Part shown: positions 20,395 to 38,064 of the stretch, in pieces
How the letters are laid out: each line of letters opens with the position of its first letter
Position numbering within the stretch: position 1 is the first letter of the stretch
From: Micromonospora sp. WMMD1082
Lineage (GTDB): Bacteria > Actinomycetota > Actinomycetes > Mycobacteriales > Micromonosporaceae
Assembly: GCF_029626175.1 (NCBI RefSeq)
Contig: NZ_JARUBM010000002.1
Span: 2,993,001 to 3,057,000 of the forward strand
DNA: 64,000 bases
Direction: 5' to 3'
Made by a program: the position numbers and the translations under genes
The notes under the pieces: model-generated
Told to the model about the DNA's origin: nothing
Database searches by the model: none
Seen by the model: only the letters and a program-made list of their open reading frames with translations

Positions 20395-20721
20395 CTACTT
20401 CTCCCGCCCACCCCCACCACCCCACCCGGACCCCACCCCGTTGATCATGGAGTTAGCGGGGACTTCGATCTCCAGAACACCCGCCAACTTCATGATCGAC
20501 GGCGATGAAGATGGAGAGGTGGAGGGGCAAGGAGCCGACGTTGCTGTCGCTGGGAGATTGCGGCAGATCCGAACACGAGTGCGCACCACGCACCTGTTCG
20601 CACTGCCGCGATCATTGATGCGATTGCCGCCTCCCCTCATGATTATGATCAAGGGAACCACTGCTCCGACGGCGGAGAAGAATTCACTCGCGGTCTGAAA
20701 CACGACTGTCCACTGGTGCAT
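20395..20721 (-). CDS. Doubtful small membrane protein
   Basis: 108 residues from the ATG at MHQWTVVFQTASEFF, with AGGGGG upstream. It has one hydrophobic stretch (FFSAVGAVVPLIIIM). The second half runs through the palindrome at 20441-20499 and ends in a Gly-rich run, which argues against coding. The gene, if real, may be shorter or decayed. Confidence 0.25.
   Translation of the reverse strand: MHQWTVVFQTASEFFSAVGAVVPLIIIMRGGGNRINDRGSANRCVVRTRVRICRNLPATATSAPCPSTSPSSSPSIMKLAGVLEIEVPANSMINGVGSGWGGGGGREK
20441..20499. repeat. Long intergenic inverted repeat
   Basis: TTGATCATGGAGTTAGCGGG (20441-20460) and the reverse complement of 20480-20499 match at 17 of 20 positions, separated by 19 bases. 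It lies between the TPR-like gene and the four-gene ATPase/nuclease operon. From memory, similar GATCATG-AGTT-GCGGG palindromes are dispersed in Micromonosporaceae genomes; the RNA could act as a bidirectional terminator. Confidence 0.6.
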
Positions 20722-20921: not shown

Positions 20922-23102
20922 TTGATAGCGCTGGCCACCACCCCCCTCCTCGATCTTTCGACCGCTCGTAACTGGCGCGATCTCGCCATGTGCCTGTCAC
21001 TGCTGAAGACAAGATCCGGTTTGTCCTATGCGGACCTCGAACGCCGGACGCGCACCGCTGGTCGTGACGGCAACCGGGAGCTGAAGCGCAGCACGATGAG
21101 CGATCTGCTACAGGGCAAGCGAGCCATGCCCCGTCCGATCGTGGAGAGCTTCGTCGGCGCCATGGACCTGCCGGAGACCGATCGTGCGCAGGTGTTGGCC
21201 ACCTGGGAACGGATCGCCGCGCACGCCGACCGGGGTCCCGGCGTCCCTCGCTTCACGGACGTGTCCCCGCGCGAACTCGGCATACACGCCGCGATCCGGG
21301 CACCGGACACGGTCGATGAGCTGCCGCTGTACGTCGGCCGGTACTTCGATCGCGACCTCTCGACTCTCATCCGCCGGGGAGCCGAGTGGGGCTGCTTCGT
21401 CCTGCTGGTGGGTGGCTCGTCGACCGGCAAGACCCGGTCGCTGTACGAGGCCGTCAACGGCACGGTGCCAGACTGGTCGGTGGCCCAGCCGGCGACCACC
21501 CAGGAGATCCTGCAACTGCTGCACGAGCCGGCCGAGCGGACCGTGGTGTGGCTGGACGAGTTGCACCGTTTCCTCAGCTCCACACCACCGCTGACCAGAG
21601 CCGCCGTGAGCTCACTCAAGAACGCCCGCATGATCGTGGTCGGCACGCTCTGGTCCGAGGAGTACACCGCTCGCAAGGAGTTGCGACCCGTCGGGCTGCC
21701 CGATCGGCATGCCGACGACCGCACCCTGCTCGAACTCGCCGAGGTGATCAGTGTCGAGTCGACGCTGCGCGACCACGAGCGCCGGACGGCGGAGCGGGTC
21801 GCTCAGACGGACGCCCGCATCCGCATCGCTCTGGGTAGCAGGGACGCCGGACTGACCCAGGTGCTGGCCGCCGGTCCGGATCTGCTCCACCGGTGGGAAC
21901 AGGCCCCGCCGTACGCGAGAGCGGCCATCACGGCCGCGGCCGATGCGCGCCGGCTCGGCGTCCACACGCCCCTCGCACCGGAACTCCTGGTCGACGCCAT
22001 GGCGGGCTACCTGCTTCCGTCCGAGCGCGTGACCGATACCGCACGGTGGCTGGACGACGCCCTCGCGTACGCCATCACACCCGTGCACGGCGCGGTCGCG
22101 GCGCTGTCTCCCCGGCCGGGTCGCCGCCCCGGCACGCTCGCCGGATACGTCGCGGCCGACTACCTTGTCCAGCGTCTGCGGCAGGCCCGTACGCAGTGCC
22201 CTCCGGAGAGCCTGTGGGAGGCATTGATCGACCGGCTGGAGGACACCGACGACGTCCGCCGGGTCCGGGAGGCGGCCGCCGCGCGCATGCGACACCCACT
22301 TCAGGAGCGCGCGCTGCGCCGGCTCTGCGCACTGGGCGACGACTCGGCCCACGTCCAACTGGCCCATCTGCTCGTCCGGCAGGATCGCCTCGCCGAGGCC
22401 GTCTCCGTCCTGCTGCACCAGGCACAGGAGAGGCCGGACGACGACACCGTCACCGACGCGCTCCGCGACGTGCTCGCGCTCCGGGACCGTACGGCGGGCC
22501 TGCGGACCTCCGAACCGCAGGATCAGGTTCGACTGGCGGAGCTCCTCGACGACGGTGGCGAAACCGCGGACCTTCGGGTACGCGCCGCCGACGGTGACCT
22601 CGTCGCCGTGGACGATCTCACGTACCTGCTCGCCGACCGAGGCTTCCTGCCCGACCTGGAGGACCTCGCGGACGCCGGGCATCGCCTCGCGGCGGATCTC
22701 CTTGCCGAGTTGCTCGCCACGCAGGGCCGCCTCGGGGAACTGGCGGTGCGGGCGGACGCCGGCGACGAGTCGGCGGCGAACCGGCTGAGCAAACTGCAGG
22801 CGGGTGAGCCGGACCCGACCACCAGCGGCGCGGAGGCGCAGATCGATGCACTCCGGAGCGCGGTGGTCGAGGGCCGCCCGCATGGCGCCGAGCAGCTCAC
22901 CACGCTGCTGTTCGAGCTTCGGGACGAGGAGGGGCTGCGGGCCGAGGTGAACGCGGGCACCCAGTTCGCCGACGAACGGCTGGTCGCGCTGAAGATGGTG
23001 AACTGCGGCAGGGACATGGGAGCCGCCGCAGCTGTCCTGAAGCTGCGCTCGTGCGGGCTGCACGCCGACGGCACACCGGCCGATCCGGGCGCGGCGTCGT
23101 GA
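20922..23102 (+). CDS. HTH-P-loop NTPase with helical repeats, first gene of a four-gene system
   Basis: 726 residues from TTG 20922. The start is uncertain: the frame is open from ATG 20787, and ATG 20990 would shorten it; none has an ideal ribosome site. An XRE-like HTH comes first (LSLLKTRSGLSYADLERRT, then STMSDLLQGKRAMP). Next is a P-loop ATPase: Walker A LLVGGSSTGKTRSLYEAV (Lys170) and Walker B TVVWLDELHRF. The C-terminal 350 residues are helix-pair repeats (LAELLATQGRLGELAVRADAGDE type). The layout resembles STAND-type sensors. It overlaps the nuclease gene by 4 bp (GTGA). Confidence 0.75.
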   Translation: MIALATTPLLDLSTARNWRDLAMCLSLLKTRSGLSYADLERRTRTAGRDGNRELKRSTMSDLLQGKRAMPRPIVESFVGAMDLPETDRAQVLATWERIAAHADRGPGVPRFTDVSPRELGIHAAIRAPDTVDELPLYVGRYFDRDLSTLIRRGAEWGCFVLLVGGSSTGKTRSLYEAVNGTVPDWSVAQPATTQEILQLLHEPAERTVVWLDELHRFLSSTPPLTRAAVSSLKNARMIVVGTLWSEEYTARKELRPVGLPDRHADDRTLLELAEVISVESTLRDHERRTAERVAQTDARIRIALGSRDAGLTQVLAAGPDLLHRWEQAPPYARAAITAAADARRLGVHTPLAPELLVDAMAGYLLPSERVTDTARWLDDALAYAITPVHGAVAALSPRPGRRPGTLAGYVAADYLVQRLRQARTQCPPESLWEALIDRLEDTDDVRRVREAAAARMRHPLQERALRRLCALGDDSAHVQLAHLLVRQDRLAEAVSVLLHQAQERPDDDTVTDALRDVLALRDRTAGLRTSEPQDQVRLAELLDDGGETADLRVRAADGDLVAVDDLTYLLADRGFLPDLEDLADAGHRLAADLLAELLATQGRLGELAVRADAGDESAANRLSKLQAGEPDPTTSGAEAQIDALRSAVVEGRPHGAEQLTTLLFELRDEEGLRAEVNAGTQFADERLVALKMVNCGRDMGAAAAVLKLRSCGLHADGTPADPGAAS

Positions 23103-24103
23103 ACCGGGGCCTCGCCGACGTCCCGTCGGACCGCGTCATCGCCCTGCCCGGTGCCGAGATCGACGCGCTGGCCATGCTGATCGTCCGGAACCATGCGGAG
23201 CTGGCCGCCGTCGTGTACCGCTCGGCCGTGAGGCACGCGATGCCGGCGGACTTCGTGCACGCCGCGGTGGACCGACTCGAACAGGTCGCCGTCGAGCTGT
23301 TGCCGGCGTGGCTCCCAGACGTGGACGGGGGAGTCCGTCCCGACACCGCCGGGCTCGCAGCGGTCCGGGCGGCTGCCGCCGCACGGGCACGCCGCGACCG
23401 CTACCCCGGCTCCTTCCTGCCGGACCTGGCCACCTTCGCGCTGACCGCACGGCGAGCCGCCACCACGTGCCTCCCGTTGCGTACCCGGGCGGCCGCGCTG
23501 GCTCGCCTCGTCGCCGACGCGTTCGGCCGGCGGAAGGTCGTGTTGCTCGTCGAACCGGCCGACGCCGACGGTGCCGTCGTCGCGGCGGGGGCCGCGTGGC
23601 TCGTCTACCACGGCGGCCCGGTCGTCTGGCTGATCGGAGCCGGCGCGGCCGAGTTGGACGGACTCCCGAAGTGCTGGTTGGCGCCGCCGGTCACCTCGTC
23701 CGACCTGGCCGACGAGGGCCGGACGGTCGTCGGAAAGCCACACCCGGCGAGCCATGTCGAGCAGACATTGGAGGCGGCGCTTGCCGCCGAGAGCTGGTCG
23801 GCCGGGCGGATGTGGAACCAGAGCTACCAGTCCCATCGCCTCGCCGCGCCGGTACGGCTCGACCTGGTGTGGCCCGACGAACGTTGCGTGGTGGAGATCG
23901 ACGGACCGGAGCACTGCCGCCCGGTTCGCTTCGAGGCCGACCGGCAGCGCGACGTCCAGCTGCAACTGGACGGGTACGCCGTCCTGCGCTTCACCAACGC
24001 CCGAGTAACCCACGATGTCGGCGCCGTGGTCCAGCAGATCGGTACCTATCTGCGGGCGCGTCGCCGGGACATAGCGGAAGGACGGCATCATGGCCGCCGA
24101 TGA
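23099..24103 (+). CDS. Protein with C-terminal DUF559/Vsr-like PD-(D/E)xK nuclease domain
   Basis: 334 residues from a GTG overlapping the upstream stop. The first 240 residues are helical and unrecognised. The C-terminal 90 residues read like a very-short-patch-repair/DUF559 nuclease: VRLDLVWPDERCVVEIDGPE, with Asp255, Glu266 and Asp268, then RQRDVQLQLDGYAVLRFTNARV, the usual arginine and RF strand. I predict a Mg-dependent DNA endonuclease. The 3' end overlaps the next gene by 14 bp, so the products are probably made in fixed ratio and work together. Confidence 0.75.
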   Translation: MNRGLADVPSDRVIALPGAEIDALAMLIVRNHAELAAVVYRSAVRHAMPADFVHAAVDRLEQVAVELLPAWLPDVDGGVRPDTAGLAAVRAAAAARARRDRYPGSFLPDLATFALTARRAATTCLPLRTRAAALARLVADAFGRRKVVLLVEPADADGAVVAAGAAWLVYHGGPVVWLIGAGAAELDGLPKCWLAPPVTSSDLADEGRTVVGKPHPASHVEQTLEAALAAESWSAGRMWNQSYQSHRLAAPVRLDLVWPDERCVVEIDGPEHCRPVRFEADRQRDVQLQLDGYAVLRFTNARVTHDVGAVVQQIGTYLRARRRDIAEGRHHGRR

Positions 24104-24743
24104 CCTGACTGCATCCGAGAGCGCGATCCTCGTCGTACTCATGGCCGAGGCGCGGGAGGTGCTGAACACCGAACTCCGCGAGCGGTACGGCCTGGACGTC
24201 CGCAAGCCGCAGCGGGACAAGCTCACCCGCCTGCACTACGTGGCCAGCCGGAAGAGCGGACCGACCTACGCCCTTCAGCTCGACGACAAGGGCTGGGTAC
24301 GGGTGCAGAACGACCTCGACTTCACGCTCCGTGGCGCCTCGGCGCTCGGCGCCGCGTTGACCGCCCTGCAGGCCAGCCTGCGTGATCGTGTCCTGGCGCG
24401 CAGCGGTTGTGCCACGCTGACCGAGCTCTTCGCGCTGAGCGACGTACGCGCGCCGGCCTCCCCGCCGGCCCCGGAGCCGTCCGGGCCGCTGAAGGCGCGC
24501 ATCGTCAGCGCGTACCAGGCCCTCGCCGCCGAGCCCGGGGCGTGGGTGAGCCTGCGCCGGCTCCGCCCGTTCTTCGCCGACGTGCCACGGGACGACCTGG
24601 ACGATTCGCTGCGTCGGCTCAGCCGCGAGGTCGGCGTGAACCTTGTTCCGGAGTCGAATCAGAAGACGCTCAGCGAGGCGGACATCAAGGCAGCGCTCCG
24701 CCTCGGTGGCCAGGAGAACCACCTGCTCGCGATCGGCGTGTGA
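24090..24743 (+). CDS. Small helical, probably winged-helix protein of the ATPase-nuclease system
   Basis: 217 residues from ATG 24090, with GGAAGGA upstream. The N-terminal 75 residues (SESAILVVLMAEAREVLNTE, LRERYGLDVRKPQRDKLTRL, KSGPTYALQLDDKGW) look like a winged helix. The second half (AWVSLRRLRPFFADVPRDDL, LDDSLRRLSREVGVNL) suggests another helical module. I know no named family. It overlaps both neighbours (14 bp upstream; TGATG downstream), so it is very likely a subunit or adaptor linking nuclease and ATPase. Confidence 0.7.
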   Translation: MAADDLTASESAILVVLMAEAREVLNTELRERYGLDVRKPQRDKLTRLHYVASRKSGPTYALQLDDKGWVRVQNDLDFTLRGASALGAALTALQASLRDRVLARSGCATLTELFALSDVRAPASPPAPEPSGPLKARIVSAYQALAAEPGAWVSLRRLRPFFADVPRDDLDDSLRRLSREVGVNLVPESNQKTLSEADIKAALRLGGQENHLLAIGV

Positions 24744-27700
24744 TGAACGAGGCCGAACGCACCGCCCTGGCGGCACTGCGGTTCAACTGGGCGCCGGTCC
24801 CCGACGACGTGTGGCGGCCACTGCCCTTCCACGTCGACGGCCTGCACGTCCCGGTCGTCCGGGATGTGCTCGCCGGAGTGGACGAGGCCCGGTCGAGCAC
24901 GGCCGGCAGCCCGCTCGGCCTGGTTGTCCAGGGCCAGCGCGGGTCCGGCAAGACCCACCTGCTCGGCTGGATCCGCCAGCAGGTGCAGGAAAAGGGCGGC
25001 TACTTCTTCCTGGTCAGTCTGCTCGACGCCGGGAGCTTCTGGGACAACGTGCTGGCCGCGATGCTGGACGGCCTGTCCCGGCCGGTGCCCGGTAGTCGGC
25101 AGACTCAGCTCAAACTGTTGCTGCGGCGCCTGTCGGCGATGGTGGGCGCGCCCCGGACGGCACGCCGGGCCGTCATGGGCGACACCGAACTCACCCGGGC
25201 TGCGCTCGACGCCTTCCTGGAAGGGCTCGGTGGCTTCGATCGCCACGCGGCCCGGACCTGCCAGGAAACCGCTCGGGCACTCGCTCTGAGCGCCTCCGAG
25301 GACATCTCCCATCGCGACCTCGCGGAGAACTACTTCCTCTCCGGAGTCGAAGTAACTCCCGGCGAGCGCGCGGTGTGGGGCATGCGCCGCGCCCCTCGTC
25401 CGGCTCAGCAGATCGTGCAGGACCTGTCCTGGCTGCTGGCCCTCACCGGTCCGTCGGTCGTGGCGATCGACCAGATCGACACGCTGATCGCCCAGCTGGC
25501 GATCCAGGGCGATCCCTCTCTGGTGGGCGCCGCCGCGATGAGCCCCGAACAGGCGCTGATGCTGGCCCGGATGGCGGACGGCCTCATGTCGCTGCGACAG
25601 ACGACGCGACGGACCCTGACCGTCCTCGCCTGCATCCCGAACTCGTGGACCATCATCAAGTCCACCGCCGCCGACACGGTGGCCGACCGGTTCCGGGAGA
25701 CACCGACGCTGCGCCGGATCGACGACGCCGACCTCGCCCGGGCGATCATCGAGAAGCGGTTCGCCCTCCGCTACCACGAGGTCGGGTTCGCACCGCCGTA
25801 CCCCTCGTGGCCGGTGTCCCCGCACGCCTTCGGCGAGGCACGGGCGTTCACCCCACGTCAGCTGCTCATCGAGATCGACCGGCATGTCCGCGCCTGCATC
25901 GCCGCCGACGAGGTCCAGGAGCTGGACAGCCTCGGCGAGCCGCCCACCGCGGAGCCGCGTGCGCCCCGGCCCGCCCCGGTCACCACCACGAGTGCGGAGA
26001 TGGACCGCTACGACACCCGCTTCGCCGAGCTGAGGGCCGTCGCCGACATCACCGCGCCGCTCCAGCGGGCATCGGAGGACGAGGTGATGCCACCACTGCT
26101 CGCCGCCGGGCTCACCGCCTGGATCCTGGAACGGGGCGACGCCGGGGAGGCGTTCAGCGTCGACCCGCCGCCGAGCACCGATCCGCCGCTGCACGCCCGG
26201 CTACGCCTGACGCTCGACGAACGCACCGAGGATCAGGTGCACTGGTGTTTCCGGGCGATCAGCGACGACCATCACGGCAACGCGGCGCTGGCCCGTCTCC
26301 GGAAGGCCTGCGTAGCGTCCGCCCTCGATACCGGCCTGGCCAAACGCAAGCTGTTCCTGCTCCGGAAGGGCAGATGGTCGACCAGCGCGGGCACCCAGAA
26401 GGCCATCGGTGCGTTCACCGAAGCCGGCGGGCAGACGATCCGCGTGGACGACGAGGACCTACGCATCCTCTCGGCACTCCAGGTCATGCTCGCCGAGGCC
26501 ACGATGGACCTGCAGGGATGGCTGGCCGAACGCCGCCCGACCCGGGACCTCAAGTTCCTCCAGCACGCTCTGGCGGACGTCGACGGCTGGACGGCGGGCG
26601 GCGGATCCGATCCGGCACCCGTGGAGATCGCACAGCCGGTCGAGCCGGCTCCACCGACGACGACCGCGACGGCGGCCGAGCCGTCGTTCGTCGTCGGGTA
26701 CGGGTACGACGACGAGATGCCCGTCCCGCTGGCTCTCGAGGCACTCCGGAAGCACACCACGATCTTCGCCGGCTCGGGCTCGGGCAAGACCGTACTCATC
26801 CGCCGCATCGTCGAGGAGTGCGCCCGCGAGGGTGTGTCGGCCATCGTGCTTGATCCCAACAACGACCTCGCCCGCCTCGGCGAGGGATGGCCCGAGCCAC
26901 CCGCCCAGTGGCGACCGGGCGATGCGGCCAAAGCACAGGACTATCTGGCGCACACCGATGTCGTCGTCTGGACACCGCGGCGCACGTCGGGCCGCCCGCT
27001 GAGCTTCCAGCCACTGCCCGACTTCGTCAGTGTGCGCGACGATCCGGACGAGTTCGGCGAGGCCGTCGAGGCGGCCGTCGCGTCCCTCGCACCACGTGCC
27101 ATGGTCACCGGCCGGGCCAGCAAGGCGCACCTGGGGCTGGCGGTGCTACGCAAGGCCGTCGAGCACTACGGCCGGCGCGGGGGCACCCGGTTGAAGGGTC
27201 TCATCGACACGCTGGCCGATCTTCCGGACGGCATCATCGATCTCGACGATGCCGACAAGATCGGTCTCAGCCTGGCGCAGACCCTGACCGCTGCCATGGT
27301 GAACGACCCGCTCTTCGGTGGCGAGGGCACGCCGATGGATCCCGGTGTCCTGCTCACACCCGAGCACGGTAAGCGGGCCCGGGTGTCGGTCGTCAGCCTC
27401 GTCGGCCTGCCCTCCGACGACGTCCGCCAGAGCTTCGTCAACCAGCTCCAGATGGCGCTCTTCGCCTGGATCAAGAAGAACCCGGCAGGCGATCGGCCGC
27501 TGCTGGGGTTGCTCATCCTGGACGAGGCGCAGACGTTCGCCCCCTCGGGGGCGATGACGGCCTGCACCCAGAGCACTCTGGTGCTGGCCGCCCAGGCACG
27601 AAAGTACGGACTGGGGTTGATCTTCGCTACCCAGGCGCCGAAGGGGCTGCACAATCGCATCCCGGGCAATGCGGCAACGCAGCTGTACGGCCTGATGAAC

Positions 27701-27913
27701 AGCCCGATCCAGATCGAGGCGGCACGCGAGATGGCCAGGGCCAAGGGCGGGGACGTACCGGACATCTCCCGGCTGACTGTCGGCGAGTTCTATCTCGCCG
27801 CCGAGGGCACCGCGCCGCGGAAGATCAGGACGCCGCTCTCGCTGAGCCACCACCCGCGCAGCCCGCTGAGCGTCGAGGAGGTGCTGGACCGGGCTCGCGG
27901 TACGGCTCGCTAG
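24743..27913 (+). CDS. Dual P-loop ATPase: N-terminal AAA/ORC-like domain plus C-terminal HerA/FtsK-like translocase
   Basis: 1056 residues from ATG 24743 (TGATG overlap). The N-terminal ATPase has Walker A VVQGQRGSGKTHLL (Lys70) and Walker B VVAIDQIDTL (Asp243). A middle region (about 410-620) resembles no family I know. The C-terminal ATPase is HerA/DUF87-like: HTTIFAGSGSGKTVLIRRIV (Lys682), IVLDPNNDLARLG, Walker B LLILDEAQTFAP (Asp927, Glu928), and LVLAAQARKYGLGLIFATQ. HerA-type motors form hexamers that pump DNA and often pair with a nuclease in repair or anti-phage systems. Two ATPases in one chain is unusual. Confidence 0.85.
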   Translation: MNEAERTALAALRFNWAPVPDDVWRPLPFHVDGLHVPVVRDVLAGVDEARSSTAGSPLGLVVQGQRGSGKTHLLGWIRQQVQEKGGYFFLVSLLDAGSFWDNVLAAMLDGLSRPVPGSRQTQLKLLLRRLSAMVGAPRTARRAVMGDTELTRAALDAFLEGLGGFDRHAARTCQETARALALSASEDISHRDLAENYFLSGVEVTPGERAVWGMRRAPRPAQQIVQDLSWLLALTGPSVVAIDQIDTLIAQLAIQGDPSLVGAAAMSPEQALMLARMADGLMSLRQTTRRTLTVLACIPNSWTIIKSTAADTVADRFRETPTLRRIDDADLARAIIEKRFALRYHEVGFAPPYPSWPVSPHAFGEARAFTPRQLLIEIDRHVRACIAADEVQELDSLGEPPTAEPRAPRPAPVTTTSAEMDRYDTRFAELRAVADITAPLQRASEDEVMPPLLAAGLTAWILERGDAGEAFSVDPPPSTDPPLHARLRLTLDERTEDQVHWCFRAISDDHHGNAALARLRKACVASALDTGLAKRKLFLLRKGRWSTSAGTQKAIGAFTEAGGQTIRVDDEDLRILSALQVMLAEATMDLQGWLAERRPTRDLKFLQHALADVDGWTAGGGSDPAPVEIAQPVEPAPPTTTATAAEPSFVVGYGYDDEMPVPLALEALRKHTTIFAGSGSGKTVLIRRIVEECAREGVSAIVLDPNNDLARLGEGWPEPPAQWRPGDAAKAQDYLAHTDVVVWTPRRTSGRPLSFQPLPDFVSVRDDPDEFGEAVEAAVASLAPRAMVTGRASKAHLGLAVLRKAVEHYGRRGGTRLKGLIDTLADLPDGIIDLDDADKIGLSLAQTLTAAMVNDPLFGGEGTPMDPGVLLTPEHGKRARVSVVSLVGLPSDDVRQSFVNQLQMALFAWIKKNPAGDRPLLGLLILDEAQTFAPSGAMTACTQSTLVLAAQARKYGLGLIFATQAPKGLHNRIPGNAATQLYGLMNSPIQIEAAREMARAKGGDVPDISRLTVGEFYLAAEGTAPRKIRTPLSLSHHPRSPLSVEEVLDRARGTAR

Positions 27914-30808: not shown

Positions 30809-31179
30809 TCCTCCTCCTTCCGGCCGTCACCCGAGCTGGTCAGCCTAGTGACTGGGCCGCCGGAGACACCGACCTGTTGGCGCGGCGGCCTCGGGCAAGA
30901 CAGCGGCTGCTACCGCAGTGATCTTTTCGTCAGCTGAAAATTTGCTGAAGATCGCTTTGCGTGAGGGTGTCGGCGAGGTGGCGTCGGCGGGGTGGGCTTG
31001 TTGTGTGCTTTGTGGCGGTAGCGGGCGGTGGTTGTTCTGGGCTTGAGCACCCGGATGCGTACGGAGGGTGATCGTCCCTGATGGGTGGTGCGCCTCTGGG
31101 TGCCGATCTTGCTCTTGTGTCAGCGATCCCGGGTGTCTAGCGTGTCGATCACTTTTCTTGATCGACGGGGAGTGTTGTG
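30809..31179. other. Gap before the Rhs gene
   Basis: No gene seen. From about 30950 the DNA becomes strikingly G/T-rich on this strand, the same skew as the first part of the Rhs gene, so the imported segment may begin upstream of the coding start. Confidence 0.45.
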
Positions 31180-34100
31180 ATGCTTGCTGGCCGCCGTGGG
31201 GGCACTGCGTTCGACCGTTTTGGTGCGCGGGGGCGGGTCAGGGCTGGGGCGCTGGCGGTGGCGGTGTTGCTGGGGTTGTTGCCGGTGGTGCAGCTGCAGG
31301 CTCCGGTGGCTGCGGCGGGGCCGGTGTTGGAGCCGGGTGAGTCCCGGTCGGTGGCGAGTGTTGCGGTGCGGCAGCAGGCGCAGGATGCGGATCCGGATGA
31401 CGAGGTGACGGTGACGGAGCCGCTTCCCGCGGGGACGTTTCCCGAGGGTGGTGAGGCGGTCCTCGATCTTCAGGGTGATGCTGGGGATCGGGAGGCGTTC
31501 GGGCTGACGGTCGAATCCGCCGGGGAGGGTGTGGCGGGGCGTGGTGTGGGGGCTGCCGGGGTCGGGTCGGTGCGGGTGCGGTCGTTTGACCGGGCGGTGT
31601 CGGTGGCGTTGGGTAACGCGGGTCCGTTGTATTCCCTGGCACGCGCGGATGGTTCGGCGGGTGCGGGTGAGGTGCAGATCGTCGTCGACTATGCGGGCTT
31701 CGCGCAGGCGTATGGGGGTTCGTTCGCTGACCGGTTGACGTTGGTGCGGTTGCCGGGGTGCGCGGCGACGACGCCGGAGGTGCCGGAGTGTTCGGCGGAT
31801 CCGGTGTGGGTGTCGGCGGTCAATGATCCGCATGCGCAGACGTTGACGGCGGTGGTGGAGGTCGGCGGCGACGCCACCGCGGCTGGGAGCCGGACGGGTG
31901 CGTTCGAGGGCTTCGCGTCGGCGTCGTCGGTGGAGTCGGTGGGGGTGTATGCGCTGGCGTCGTCGGCGTCGGGCGGGTCGACGGGTTCCTACACGGCGAC
32001 GGATCTGAAGCCGTCGGGATCGTGGCAGGTGGGGGAGAGCGCGGGGTCGTTCTCCTACTCGTATCCGTTGCCGGAGCCGCCGTTGCCGTATGGGCAGACG
32101 TTGGGGCTGCAGTTGTCGTACAGCTCGTCTGCGGTGGATGGGATGACGCACGGTACGAACAATCAGTCGGGTCCGGTGGGGTTGGGTTGGTCGTACTCGC
32201 CGGGCTACGTGGAGCGGATGTACAAGCCGTGCCGGACGTATCCGACGGAGATGTGTTGGGAGTCCCCGGACGGTGAGGACGGGGAGTCGGCCACCAACGA
32301 TGTGGCGGCGTCGCATATCACGATCTCGCTGCAGGGGCAGTCGACGCAGATTGTGAAGACCACGGCGGGGGTGTGGAAGCCGGTCGACGATCTCGGGTGG
32401 CGGGTGGAGTTCCTGTCGGGTGGGGCCGAGGACGACGGTTACTGGAAGGTGTGGACGCAGGACGGTACGGAGTACCGGTTCGGGTATGTGCGGGACTCGG
32501 TGTGGAAGATGTCGTTCCTCGGCGACGAGGCGGGGGAGCCGTGCCACAACGTGTATCCGGCGTCGTGTCGGGATCCGTGGCGGTGGAACCTGGACCGGGT
32601 TCGTGACGCCAACGAGAACGAAACGTATCTGCACTGGACGCGGGAGACAAACCACTACAAGCGCGCCTCGGGTGGGTCGATCCTGGAGTACGACCGGGGC
32701 GGGTACCTGTCGGAGATCGAGTACGCGAAGAACGTGACGGAGGCGGGTGCGGTTCCGGTCGGCCGGACGGTGTTCGGGTGGGCGCACCGGTGTGTGGAGC
32801 GCACCGCCGAGGATGATCCGTTCAACAACGAGCCGGCCGATTGTCCGTCGTTGTCGTCGAACCCGAACTCCTACCCGGACGTGCCCGGTGACCTGGTCTG
32901 TGGGTCGTCGTCGTGTGGGAATTACACCCAGTCGTTTTTCACCGCCAGGATCCTGGACCGGGTCACGTCGTACCAGTGGAACGCCGGCACCGGGGCGTGG
33001 AACAACATCGGTCGGGTGCAGTTGCGGTACAAGGTGTCGAACCCGACCGGTCTGACCGAGCGGGTGTTCGTCCTGGACTACATACGGCCGAGCGGCCTGA
33101 TCGGCGCGGACGCGAACAAGATTGACATGCCGCCGGTGGACTTCGACTACGTCGACGGTGTGCAGCCGAACTTCCGTGACGGCCGCGTCGACTACGACGA
33201 AGCCGGGTTGGGTGTGTCCGCGATGCGGATGCCGCGGCTGCTGGTGGTCCGCAACGGCTTCGGTGGTCGCACGGAGGTCACCTACGGCACGCAGAAGCCG
33301 TGCCCGCAGGGCGGGTCGAACCAGTCCGGGTTCAACAGCTGGCACAACGGCAAGCAGGGCAACTGGGACGTCAACACCGAGGACTGCTACCCGATCTTCC
33401 ACACCCCGCCCGGCGCCGACCCCGGCTTCGGCATCTTCCACAAGTACCTGGTCAAGAAGATCGTGGAGAAGGACCAGGTGGGCGGTTCACCGGACCAGGT
33501 GACCCAGTACGACTACACGGTCGGGAACCCGGCGTGGAAGAACCCCAACAACCCCCTAGTCCCGGACGCCAACGAGACGTGGAGCATCTTCGCCGGCTAC
33601 AACCGCGTCCGCGTGCTGCAAGGCTCCGGTACGGACCCCAGCAAGTACACGGTGTGGATGTCGAACTTCTTCCGCGGCATGTACCACGACATCTACGACC
33701 CCGGCAGCGGCGGCGGCATCAAAGAAACCACCATCACCGACTACGACGGCAACACCTACGACGACCACTACGCCCGCGCCGGCATGGTCCTGCAAACCCG
33801 GCACTACCGGATGACCACCTACAACGCCAACCCCGCCAACGCCGCCTACACCGAAGTCGAAAGCACCCGCTACGACCACGTCATCCAAGGCAGCTTCAAC
33901 GGCCCCGGCTACGCCAACCCCCGCCAAACTCGCCTCGGCCTGGAAAACCACCGCGTCAAACTCGACGACGGCAGCTGGCGGCACAGCGAAGAAAAGACCA
34001 TCTACGAGCCCACGTACGGGCTGCCCATCCGGTTCCACCAGTACCACCAGGTCGGAGTCGCGGACAACACCTGCACCTCTTACACCTACGCCCAGCAGGA

Positions 34101-37100
34101 CGCCCCGAACTCTTTCTACATGATCAGCTTCCCGGAGCGGGTGGAGACCTGGACCGGCGACACCTGCGGCTCAGGCACACTGCTCTCGCGTGCGGTGACC
34201 TTCTACGACACGTACACCGTTGAAGGCTCCCAGGCACCGTTCGACGGCAACGTCGCTGAGGTGCGCACGTACACCAACCCGACCAGCTACGTCTCCAGCG
34301 GCCGGAGAACCTACGACAACATGGGTCGGCTCCACACTGCGACCGACCCTGCCGGGCTGACAACGACGATCGGTTACAGCCCGGTGGTGAACTGGCCGGA
34401 CAACGGAATCACCAGCACCGTCGGTGGCGGCTTCAACCACACCACCACGACGGTGATCGACCGGCACACCGGCCAACCGTCGAGGATCACTGACCCGAAC
34501 GGCAAGATCACCGACCTTGTCTACGACCCGCTCGGGCGCATGGCAGAGGTGTACCTGCCGGGCCAGGCCAAGTCCTCCGGGGTGCCGTCGCTGCGGTTTG
34601 GCTACCAGGTCACTTCCAGTGGCATCGGACAGCCGACTGCCCCGGCGCGCACCAGAACCGACTCGCTGCAGTCGGACAGCGGTAGCCCGGTCTACCTGAC
34701 CTCGTACCAGTACGTGGATGGTCTTGGTCGGATCAGGGAAGCCCAGCAACCCGGCCCCAATGGAGGACGGATCGTCACCGCCGCCACCTACGACGCCCGC
34801 GGCAACACCGCCGCCACCACGAGCCCATTTCACAACGCCTCGGCGGCCGGTGCTGGACTGGTCAACCCCAACCTCGCCACCGTCCCGGCCATCCACGAAA
34901 CCACCTACGACCACCTGAACCGTCCGACGAGCCAGGTGGACAAGAAACTCGGCACAGCGTGGCGGCAGACGGCTACCACCTACCACGGCGACCGCGTCAC
35001 GATTGTGCCGCCGGCCGGGGGCACCAAGACCGTCAGCCACGTCGACGTGCGTGGCAACACGACGCGCCTAGACCAATACACCTCGACCACCAACCCGAAC
35101 ACCTACCAGAGCACTACCTACACCTACGACCTGCTCGACCAACTCACCGCTCTTCTCGACCCGGCCGGCAACACCTGGACCAACGCCTACGACCTCGCTG
35201 GCCGCCTCACCCAGAAGACCGACCCCGACTCCGGTACCACCGTTACCCACTACGACACCGCCGGCAGGGTCGCCCACACCCTCGACAGCCGCGGGATCAA
35301 GATCTCTGTCGAATACGACAACATGTCCCGCGCGATCGGCCGCTGGTCCGGCGATGTCGGCACCGGCACCCGCCTGGCCAGCTCCCTGTACGACACCATC
35401 GCCAAGGGACAGCTAACCTCCTCCACCCGCCATGATGTCGGCGGCAACTACACCACTACCGTCACCGGCTACACCGACAACTACCAGCCCAGCGGCACCG
35501 CCATCACCATCCCGGCAGCCGAAGGCGCCCTCGCCGGCACGTATACCACCACATTCACGTACAACAAGGCGGGACAAGTCACCTCCAGCAGCCAGCCGGC
35601 CGCCGGAGGTCTACCCGCCGAAACCCTGACTTTCGGCTACGACAACAACGGCTACCCCACCACCATGACCGGCGTCGACACCTACGTCGCCGCCACCAGC
35701 TACTACGCATACGGACCCATCCACCAACTCCTGCTCGGCGTCGCTGGTAAGCGGGTACGACTGACCAACACCGTCGACCAGCAGACCGGCCGACTCGACG
35801 CCACCAGCATCGACCTCGAAAACACGCCGGGCGCCTTCACCGCCAAGTACGGCACCGGCTACCGCTACGACGCCATCGGCAACGTCACCTCCATCCTCGG
35901 CAGCACCGACGGCACCGCCGACCAGGTCGAATGCTTCCGCTACGACCCCCTACGGCAGCTCACCACCGCCTGGACGGGCAGCACCCCGACGGCAACCGCC
36001 TGCGACCAAGCGCCACAACGAGGCGGCAGCGTCGACCCCTACTGGCGATCCTGGGAATTCGACACCGTCGGAAACCGCACCAAGCAGACCGACCACAACT
36101 CCGCCGGTAACACCGAATGGACTTACACCCACCCGGCAGCCGGTGCCAGCAGACCTCATACCCCCACCGCTGTAACCGCCACCGGGCCGCTTGCCGCCAC
36201 CCCAGCCCGCTCGTTCACCTACGACTCCGCCGGCAACACCCTCACCCGGCACACGGAGACCGGAGCCCTGCAACACCTGGAATGGGACGCCGAGGGCCGT
36301 CTCGACACGCTCACCGAAGGCACCGACGAAACCACATACATCTACGACACCGCAGGCAACCGGCTGATCAGCCGAGCCCCCGACAAAACCACCCTCTACC
36401 TTGGAACCACCGAACTCACCCTCAACGCCGGCGCCACCCAAACCGACGGCACCCGCTACTACACCGCCGCAGGCCGCACCATCGCCGTCCGCGCCCACAC
36501 TGGCCTCGTGTGGAGCGGCGGAGACCGCCACGGCACCGAGCAAGTCCAGATCAACGCCGACAACCTCAGCACGAGCCGCAAGCGGCTCCTGCCCTACGGC
36601 GAAGACCGCACCACCCCGCCTTCCATCTTCCTCGGCACCCGCGGCTTCGTCGGCGGCACCCAAGACAACACCGGCCTCACCCACCTCGGCGCCCGCGAGT
36701 ACGACCCCACCCTCGCACGATTCATCAGCCTCGACCCCGTCCAGGACCTAGCCAATCCGCAACAGTGGAACGGCTACAGCTACGCCAACAACAACCCCAC
36801 CACCTTCAGCGACCCCTCCGGCCTTTACCCTCTAGGCGACGGTAGCGGACACGTTCGGGCCTACCAGACCTCAAAGAGCAAATACAAGATCGTCGACTAC
36901 ACCCCCAAATACACCAGCGAGGTCAAGAAGCAGCCAACGACGTCGACCGGAGGCTCGAAAAAGAGCAGCGGCGGCGGTGCCCCCAAGATCGGAGACGCCA
37001 CGCTCGGTGTAGAACCAGGCGTCAAAGAAGTATGGACACTGGACCACATCGCCCAGACGGCATACGGAAAGAACTTCGACCAAATCGGAGACTCATGGGA

Positions 37101-38064
37101 CCAGAGGCGCGTTGTCGCCGAGGTGTGGTGTCATAACAACCCGGTCCGCTGCGAAGAATCCGACCCCGGCGGACGCAGAGCATCTGGCGAACTCTTCGCG
37201 GAGCTCAGCGGATACGCCGACGCCAAGGACTGTGCGACGCAGGGAAGCTTCTCGGCCTGCGCCTGGACCGCCCTCGCCGTAATCCCCGTCGCTGGCAAGG
37301 TCGGTGGCGTCCTCGGAAAACGCTTCTACCGATGGGCTGCCGAATTTTTCCGAAAGGCCTGCAGCTTCAGCGATGACACCCAGGTCCTCATGGCCGACGG
37401 CAGCACCAAACCAATCAGAGAACTACGCGTCGGCGACGAAGTCCTCGCCACCAACCCGGAAACAGGCGAAAGTGGCAAACGTAAAGTAACCCACGTATGG
37501 GTCCACGAAGACGACCTCCACACCCTCGCCATCGAGGACAGCAACCTCAGCACCACCGAAGACCACCCCTTCTGGAACGAAACACACCGTGAATGGCAAC
37601 CCGCCAACGCCCTCCACCGCGGAGATCAGCTAGCCAGCCCGTCCGGCACCGCACTAGTCACTGCGGAAGTATCGCCTTCCCCCTGGCGCGCCCTCGCCTA
37701 CAACCTCACCGTCGACGACATCCACACGTACTATGTGCTCGCCGGCAAAACGCCGGTCCTGGTGCACAACACGAGTGGTTGCGACGTTCCACTCGGTCCT
37801 CATCGTCCTGCTGGAGTCGGCGATGACTGGACGGCGAGAACGGCTGATAATGGGAAGGGTAGTGTGTGGCAGGCTCCTGGATCAACGGGGAACGCGGACA
37901 TGGTTCGCACTATGAACCCGACGACCACGTATCCGAATGGGTATGTACGCTTTTATAACAGGCATGGTCAGCCGATCGGACTCAATGGAAAGCCGGGCTC
38001 GAAGGCCGAAACGCACATTCCAATGAACCCGGATGGAACATATCCGCTGCCGAATGGATGGTAG
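31180..38064 (+). CDS. Rhs/YD-repeat polymorphic toxin with pre-toxin HINT domain
   Basis: 2294 residues from ATG 31180, with GGGGAG seven bases upstream. A signal peptide (LAVAVLLGLLPVVQLQAPVAAA) leads to a TcdB/SpvB-like region (about 280-900), then many YD repeats, such as TTTYTYDLLDQLTALLDPAGN and YDTAGNRLISRAPDKT, and the Rhs core end LGAREYDPTLARFISLDP. Next is a pre-toxin HINT autoprotease: CSFSDDTQVLMADG (Cys about 2062), TEDHPFW and TPVLVHNTSG (Asn about 2198). The last 97 residues are the toxin tip (PNGYVRFYNRHGQPIGLNG). The shell would hold the tip until release into a rival. Immunity is encoded next door. Confidence 0.9.
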   Translation: MLAGRRGGTAFDRFGARGRVRAGALAVAVLLGLLPVVQLQAPVAAAGPVLEPGESRSVASVAVRQQAQDADPDDEVTVTEPLPAGTFPEGGEAVLDLQGDAGDREAFGLTVESAGEGVAGRGVGAAGVGSVRVRSFDRAVSVALGNAGPLYSLARADGSAGAGEVQIVVDYAGFAQAYGGSFADRLTLVRLPGCAATTPEVPECSADPVWVSAVNDPHAQTLTAVVEVGGDATAAGSRTGAFEGFASASSVESVGVYALASSASGGSTGSYTATDLKPSGSWQVGESAGSFSYSYPLPEPPLPYGQTLGLQLSYSSSAVDGMTHGTNNQSGPVGLGWSYSPGYVERMYKPCRTYPTEMCWESPDGEDGESATNDVAASHITISLQGQSTQIVKTTAGVWKPVDDLGWRVEFLSGGAEDDGYWKVWTQDGTEYRFGYVRDSVWKMSFLGDEAGEPCHNVYPASCRDPWRWNLDRVRDANENETYLHWTRETNHYKRASGGSILEYDRGGYLSEIEYAKNVTEAGAVPVGRTVFGWAHRCVERTAEDDPFNNEPADCPSLSSNPNSYPDVPGDLVCGSSSCGNYTQSFFTARILDRVTSYQWNAGTGAWNNIGRVQLRYKVSNPTGLTERVFVLDYIRPSGLIGADANKIDMPPVDFDYVDGVQPNFRDGRVDYDEAGLGVSAMRMPRLLVVRNGFGGRTEVTYGTQKPCPQGGSNQSGFNSWHNGKQGNWDVNTEDCYPIFHTPPGADPGFGIFHKYLVKKIVEKDQVGGSPDQVTQYDYTVGNPAWKNPNNPLVPDANETWSIFAGYNRVRVLQGSGTDPSKYTVWMSNFFRGMYHDIYDPGSGGGIKETTITDYDGNTYDDHYARAGMVLQTRHYRMTTYNANPANAAYTEVESTRYDHVIQGSFNGPGYANPRQTRLGLENHRVKLDDGSWRHSEEKTIYEPTYGLPIRFHQYHQVGVADNTCTSYTYAQQDAPNSFYMISFPERVETWTGDTCGSGTLLSRAVTFYDTYTVEGSQAPFDGNVAEVRTYTNPTSYVSSGRRTYDNMGRLHTATDPAGLTTTIGYSPVVNWPDNGITSTVGGGFNHTTTTVIDRHTGQPSRITDPNGKITDLVYDPLGRMAEVYLPGQAKSSGVPSLRFGYQVTSSGIGQPTAPARTRTDSLQSDSGSPVYLTSYQYVDGLGRIREAQQPGPNGGRIVTAATYDARGNTAATTSPFHNASAAGAGLVNPNLATVPAIHETTYDHLNRPTSQVDKKLGTAWRQTATTYHGDRVTIVPPAGGTKTVSHVDVRGNTTRLDQYTSTTNPNTYQSTTYTYDLLDQLTALLDPAGNTWTNAYDLAGRLTQKTDPDSGTTVTHYDTAGRVAHTLDSRGIKISVEYDNMSRAIGRWSGDVGTGTRLASSLYDTIAKGQLTSSTRHDVGGNYTTTVTGYTDNYQPSGTAITIPAAEGALAGTYTTTFTYNKAGQVTSSSQPAAGGLPAETLTFGYDNNGYPTTMTGVDTYVAATSYYAYGPIHQLLLGVAGKRVRLTNTVDQQTGRLDATSIDLENTPGAFTAKYGTGYRYDAIGNVTSILGSTDGTADQVECFRYDPLRQLTTAWTGSTPTATACDQAPQRGGSVDPYWRSWEFDTVGNRTKQTDHNSAGNTEWTYTHPAAGASRPHTPTAVTATGPLAATPARSFTYDSAGNTLTRHTETGALQHLEWDAEGRLDTLTEGTDETTYIYDTAGNRLISRAPDKTTLYLGTTELTLNAGATQTDGTRYYTAAGRTIAVRAHTGLVWSGGDRHGTEQVQINADNLSTSRKRLLPYGEDRTTPPSIFLGTRGFVGGTQDNTGLTHLGAREYDPTLARFISLDPVQDLANPQQWNGYSYANNNPTTFSDPSGLYPLGDGSGHVRAYQTSKSKYKIVDYTPKYTSEVKKQPTTSTGGSKKSSGGGAPKIGDATLGVEPGVKEVWTLDHIAQTAYGKNFDQIGDSWDQRRVVAEVWCHNNPVRCEESDPGGRRASGELFAELSGYADAKDCATQGSFSACAWTALAVIPVAGKVGGVLGKRFYRWAAEFFRKACSFSDDTQVLMADGSTKPIRELRVGDEVLATNPETGESGKRKVTHVWVHEDDLHTLAIEDSNLSTTEDHPFWNETHREWQPANALHRGDQLASPSGTALVTAEVSPSPWRALAYNLTVDDIHTYYVLAGKTPVLVHNTSGCDVPLGPHRPAGVGDDWTARTADNGKGSVWQAPGSTGNADMVRTMNPTTTYPNGYVRFYNRHGQPIGLNGKPGSKAETHIPMNPDGTYPLPNGW

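Follow-up and report, generated by a model that had tools for sequence, protein, structure and literature searches.

A Micromonospora operon with an ORC/TnsC-like AAA+–HerA/FtsK motor and exchangeable partners: a candidate counter-invader system of the HerA/FtsK-capture type

The window, i.e., the whole 64,000-nucleotide stretch of Micromonospora sp. WMMD1082 DNA analysed here, contains on its plus strand (20922–27913) four ORFs that overlap successively by GTGA, by 14 bases and by TGATG. They encode an HTH-NTPase-repeat protein (gene 1), a nuclease (gene 2), a small putative adaptor (gene 3) and a motor with two ATPase halves (gene 4), and this operon is probably a mobile counter-invader system (anti-phage or anti-plasmid) of the HerA/FtsK-capture type, built on a two-gene core to which different partners are attached in different genomes. 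What is presented below as observed comprises the linkage of the genes, their domain content and fold matches, the invariant residues, the swapping of partners and the occurrence of relatives in Alphaproteobacteria; the defence role, and with it every biochemical step of the proposed working, is what we infer.

Domain content of the four proteins

The features of the operon, with the evidence on which each is named, are the following.

20922..23102, plus strand: gene 1, HTH–NTPase (probably STAND-type)–TPR-like repeat protein of 726 aa, from homologue domains
20979..21207, plus strand: XRE-type HTH of gene 1, about residues 20–95, from HTH_31 in P0188 and P0219 and the alignment
21411..21434, plus strand: Walker A of gene 1 (GGSSTGKT, residues 164–171), in 20 of 20 aligned rows
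23099..24103, plus strand: gene 2, Vsr/DUF559 nuclease fused behind a degenerate STAND/ORC-like domain, from profile and fold matches
23099..23689, plus strand: P-loop-type fold of gene 2 without Walker A, presumably an inactive STAND
23744..24067, plus strand: Vsr/DUF559 PD-(D/E)XK nuclease domain of gene 2; D271, E282, D284
24090..24743, plus strand: gene 3, candidate winged-helix-type adaptor of 217 aa, from weak profile matches
24743..27913, plus strand: gene 4, ORC/TnsC-like AAA+–middle domain–HerA/FtsK motor of 1056 aa
24755..25960, plus strand: ORC/TnsC-like AAA+ of gene 4; Walker A 24932–24955, Walker B (D-Q) 25469–25474
25970..26542, plus strand: middle domain of gene 4, possibly an inactive nuclease, from model secondary structure only
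26675..27877, plus strand: HerA/FtsK motor of gene 4; Walker A 26768–26791, Walker B (DE) 27521–27526

Gene 4 joins an ORC/TnsC-like AAA+ to a HerA/FtsK motor in a single chain, in agreement with the dual P-loop motor with a HerA half described in the initial annotation. Its fold matches are ORC2 and TnsC, together with HerA and the C-terminal domain of DndH. The Walker B of the AAA+ half is D-Q, invariant in 58 of 58 rows, which suggests that this half binds ATP, hydrolyses it slowly and acts as a clamp or switch more than as an engine. The middle part, which was barely covered by the fold search, found no counterpart among PDB profiles and nothing convincing in Pfam; its model secondary structure follows a restriction-endonuclease-like order of helices and strands with no ExK in the expected strand, and it is thus possibly an inactive nuclease.

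The nuclease proposed in the initial annotation is supported by profile search: the fold matches of gene 2 are Vsr and a degenerate STAND/ORC, and the key residues of the nuclease domain are invariant in 27 of 27 rows, so that it looks active. Vsr and TnsA have a common nuclease fold, and TnsC ranks among the top fold matches of the N-terminal half of gene 4. These likenesses would suit a domesticated or active transposition module composed of a TnsC-like ATPase and a TnsA-like nuclease; however, no transposase or recombinase is present among the ten neighbouring genes scanned, and such a module is very improbable.

Gene 3 looks like a winged-helix adaptor, and its description as a small probable adaptor was retained, with winged-helix matches that are weak. 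The protein has no convincing family match of its own; its profile matches hsRosR (6qfd) with an E-value of 0.0025 over residues 4–80, ranked below calmodulin matches that were taken as spurious although they score better, and a Methylobacterium homologue matches the DUF6293_C winged helix with an E-value of 0.0011, below the cut-off.

Gene 1 is a putative STAND-type NTPase with C-terminal repeats. The Pfam scan of the window's own protein gave no match of note and its profile gave none against solved structures; among its homologues, TPR matches occur, nSTAND3/AAA_16 matches lie below the cut-off, and HTH_31 is above it in two of the seven scanned. The Walker A is present in all 20 aligned rows, and the earlier reading of gene 1 as an HTH-NTPase-repeat protein was retained. 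The HTH is absent in 10 of the 20 aligned family members, in which the tblastn match starts at residue 97–110, and in P0163, a homologue with 49% identity over 98% of gene 1, an N-terminal nucleoside phosphorylase stands in its place. Profile comparison of gene 1 with gene 2, gene 3 with gene 4 and gene 2 with gene 4 found no relation.

A constant core and its partners

Scanning the collection with gene 4 gave 496 relatives; partner counts were made on the best 80 and so describe close relatives only. The partner state of each locus was assigned by tblastn and an own gene-calling script, for which reason short genes may be missed, and loci L081–L112, whose flanks are short, were left out. In all 80 loci gene 4 is immediately preceded by a gene 3 match (seen by tblastn and not by the gene caller in L066 and L069, and partial in L072, where the contig ends). 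Besides this pair, 50 loci carry the nuclease only (in four of them, L034, L042, L059 and L060, the upstream DNA is too short for gene 1 to be ruled out), 18 carry gene 1 only, two (L016 and L047) carry both and nine carry a trypsin-NACHT-WD40 protein; the cut-off contig L072 is unclassified. Across these loci the core, made of genes 3 and 4, stays constant and the partners swap. The genes are linked and not found singly, and the four-gene order is kept in 10 loci of the same family besides the window, L016 and L047 being two of these again. The four-part make-up of the initial annotation is real as a linked order of genes; at least four assemblies are built on the two-gene core, and this is one of them.

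In a 92-row tree of gene 4 (a quick tree without a mixture model, in which rows L115 and L116 have frameshifts and odd composition), the four partner states need 7 changes, against a shuffled mean of 37.3, and the state with both partners needs 3, counts that cannot tell gain from loss. The window's gene 4 belongs to a group of 7 rows with strong support, the other 6 of which are nuclease-only. In the four-gene loci L115 and L116, gene 4 itself looks frameshifted, its translated span being interrupted by 17 and 8 stops.

The place of gene 1 in the system can be judged from its own distribution. Strong matches (E < 1e-200) number 29 in 250 family genomes, and 28 of them, those checked for linkage (G184 was left out), immediately precede either gene 3 or genes 2-3. 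Gene 2 is found between gene 1 and gene 3 in 11 of these 28 loci, the window included, and no gene 2 lies between them in the other 17. Weaker relatives are common (97 of the 250 genomes at E 1e-20), and the only one of these checked, the next-ranked G017, is not beside gene 3. Gene 1 is missing from most nuclease-bearing loci. It could be merely a local transcription regulator outside the machine, as the XRE-type HTH of its homologues would suggest, and also that it was not found next to the window's closest relatives in the gene 4 tree; this is unlikely, since the half of the aligned members that have no HTH are still core-linked and gene 1 so often adjoins the core with no gene 2 between. 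In the gene-1-only loci L021, L022, L024, L027, L031 and L039, the next gene called downstream is on the opposite strand and belongs to one family (F12).

The third partner is a divergent protein of 1258–1358 aa with the Walker A motif GSPGxGKS in all nine loci. Of four N-terminal pieces scanned with Pfam, all have AAA_16/AAA_22/NACHT-type NTPase matches and three a trypsin-like peptidase above the cut-off, the piece from L073 having no trypsin domain; the C-terminal half is WD40 (L062). A Trypco1-type gene is called beside this protein in six of the nine loci, and was Pfam-checked in three. STAND proteins often cause cell suicide, and the replacement of the nuclease by such a protein in nine of the 80 loci, like the phosphorylase of P0163, would be consistent with abortive infection, in which the core senses invasion and the partner harms the host, the nuclease acting on all DNA and the trypsin on proteins of the host, and invader DNA would not be cut selectively. 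Peptidases are described in PMC7159879 as effectors of NTP-dependent conflict systems. A HerA pump with a nuclease is nevertheless better suited to processive DNA capture, and the same half of the gene 1 members carry no added N-terminal domain of any kind, so that abortive infection is the less plausible account, at about the same low level of confidence as a purely regulatory gene 1.

Relation to known systems and proposed working

The initial annotation knew of no described system with this four-part make-up, a view that had to be changed. The HerA/FtsK capture systems with Orc/CDC6 AAA+, predicted from sequence by Rakesh, Aravind and Krishnan (2024; PMC10853773), already combine an Orc/CDC6 AAA+, HerA, a nuclease and winged helices (section 22 of that paper), and the make-up of the operon is therefore not without precedent. 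The features that PMC10853773 gives for the class include an inactive restriction-endonuclease domain after the AAA+ core, a restriction-type nuclease that is active and comes from either of two named families, and a winged-helix domain or a DndG-like multi-winged-helix protein. The operon has a HerA/FtsK-clade ATPase close to the DndH C-domain, a coupled Orc/CDC6-family AAA+ and mobile, patchy neighbourhoods. Its nuclease looks active and may belong to one of the two families, gene 3 is a candidate winged-helix protein with weak profile matches, and the inactive nuclease domain is here only suspected. Compared with the main text of PMC10853773, it differs in the fusion of AAA+ and HerA in one protein, in a Vsr/DUF559 nuclease that sits behind a Walker-less STAND-like fold, and in the swapping with HTH-NTPase-TPR and trypsin-NACHT-WD40 proteins. 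That main text contains none of the terms "DUF559", "Vsr", "trypsin" or "actinobacter", and fused or Vsr members may be in its supplement; the Vsr nuclease, the partner swapping and the protease version are absent from the open-licence literature searched. The operon thus fits a variant of HerA/FtsK capture, a still predicted kind of system.

Other HerA-bearing systems resemble it less. PADLOC recognises no complete system in the four proteins; the models matched by gene 4 are mad8, several HerA and, weakly, Avs2, and gene 2 weakly matches DpdF. The mad8 match lies in the HerA half (E 8.3e-23), but MADS, which we take to comprise a methyltransferase, a kinase and further mad genes beside mad8, was rejected because none of these is present in the operon or its ten scanned neighbours. 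BREX-related capture (BRC) shares with the operon, according to PMC12839542, HerA, an ORC/Cdc6 ATPase and a nuclease, the nuclease being Vsr-like here, and it has a STAND-type protein and a multi-winged-helix protein, of which the operon has putative counterparts; BREX and BRC were rejected for lack of a PglZ, DUF4007, GNAT or TGT match in the operon or the same neighbours. The HerA-SIR2 and HerA-DUF4297 anti-phage complexes also combine a HerA ring with an effector partner, whereas the motor chain of the operon includes an additional ORC-like ATPase, its effectors differ and it has an adaptor gene. DndFGH (DndF, DndG and the multidomain DndH) was dismissed because no Dnd model is among the matches listed for the four proteins, and HerA-NurA because the partner nuclease is Vsr/DUF559 and no NurA is among the matches listed.

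In the proposed working, DNA would be bound by gene 3 together with the ORC/TnsC-like AAA+ half of the motor protein, whose HerA half would form a ring and pump double-stranded DNA. Once invading DNA is recognised, the core would hand over to a partner with a STAND/ORC-type fold, which in the window would be gene 2, its Walker-less STAND-like domain docking or sensing and its Vsr-type nuclease cutting the pumped DNA. Gene 1 may be a second switch, whose repeats sense a phage product and/or whose HTH controls the operon. Because other loci use gene 1 alone or the trypsin-NACHT-WD40 protein, the core can be regarded as detector and loader and the partner as output; most likely, the core finds DNA and loads on it and the partner executes. 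Given this swapping, the versions may not all work in the same way.

A broader reading, which is conceivable and which we put forward tentatively, is that of a general-purpose immune platform in two phyla. A D-Q ORC-like clamp fused to a HerA pump, together with a single winged-helix adaptor, would detect invading DNA and plug into exchangeable outputs of STAND type, active or dead, i.e., a nuclease, an HTH/TPR or phosphorylase protein, or a trypsin-like protease, so that one trigger would lead to DNA cutting in some bacteria and to protein-cutting suicide in others. Because the partners swap in nature, it can be cleanly tested whether a HerA machine serves as effector or as trigger, and the naturally occurring D-Q Walker B provides an ORC-like clamp that may remain loaded. 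Moreover, the HerA/FtsK capture prediction becomes directly testable with these genes, since the set is compact (a three-gene form lacks gene 1), occurs widely within one actinobacterial family and has cultured, named hosts (Micromonospora, Actinoplanes, Nonomuraea and Methylobacterium).

Distribution and genomic surroundings

Within the genus, 19 of 37 genomes have a gene 4 match at E < 1e-100 and 18 have no such match, which agrees with the expectation that the system is patchy and not fixed in the core chromosome. The profile of gene 3 has matches at E 1e-6 in 157 of 250 family genomes and at E 1e-8 in six of 396 genomes of a phylum sample, the own genome included, with a gene 4 homologue following in all six. 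Beyond the phylum, gene 4 homologues occur in Methylobacterium, Methylorubrum, Lichenibacterium and Rhodopseudomonas, with many Methylobacterium species among them (best 120 of 275). The gene 2-3-4 order is found on the mobilizable 1.57 Mb plasmid pMaq22A_1p of Methylobacterium aquaticum, whose gene 4 has 37.9% identity over 94% of the window's, and in a Tsukamurella record (L136) the cassette adjoins VapBC between rpsQ and rplN; the plasmid-borne three-gene order and this record both count for horizontal spread. Some genomes carry two distant copies (e.g., L006/L018 and L010/L044). No gene 4 was found in phage records or in viral contigs, and no clean empty insertion site is among the matches listed in 80 other genus genomes.

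The frequency of the core in one family and in many Methylobacterium species would also suit a maintenance function. The main non-defence alternative is accordingly a housekeeping role in DNA repair or segregation, similar to end resection by HerA-NurA, whose HerA is among the best fold matches of gene 4. This role is improbable, since close to half of the genus genomes have no strong gene 4 match, partners are swappable, distant second copies and plasmid carriage occur, and the nuclease is Vsr-like and not NurA. A counter-invader role is preferred.

Two of the records deserve a remark on their labels. In the one labelled Tsukamurella plasmid 22 (L136, 1–19183), the cassette shares the interval between rpsQ and rplN with VapBC, a DEAD helicase and small genes; the record is probably a piece of chromosome because ribosomal protein operons are present. 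An 11.85 Mb Nonomuraea record (L137) is filed as a plasmid, while its size suggests a chromosome.

In the window, the ten neighbours scanned are an MFS transporter, an NmrA-like, a cellulose-binding, an aminotransferase, an AraC regulator, a TPR, a glyoxalase, a phytase, a YCII and an RHS/pretoxin-HINT protein; none is a defence gene, the last being the closest to conflict. Upstream of the operon, at 20440–20500, lies an imperfect palindrome, already noted to be of dispersed type. Its half-sites occur 71 times in the own genome (36 forward and 35 reverse, with up to 2 mismatches) and a reversed control pattern 0 times, so that it is a dispersed repeat, and a link with the operon was rejected on this ground. 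The RHS/pretoxin-HINT protein, of 1937 aa with RHS repeats and a pretoxin-HINT domain, is encoded at 32251–38064, and a strong base skew is seen just upstream of its gene, at 31000–31999.
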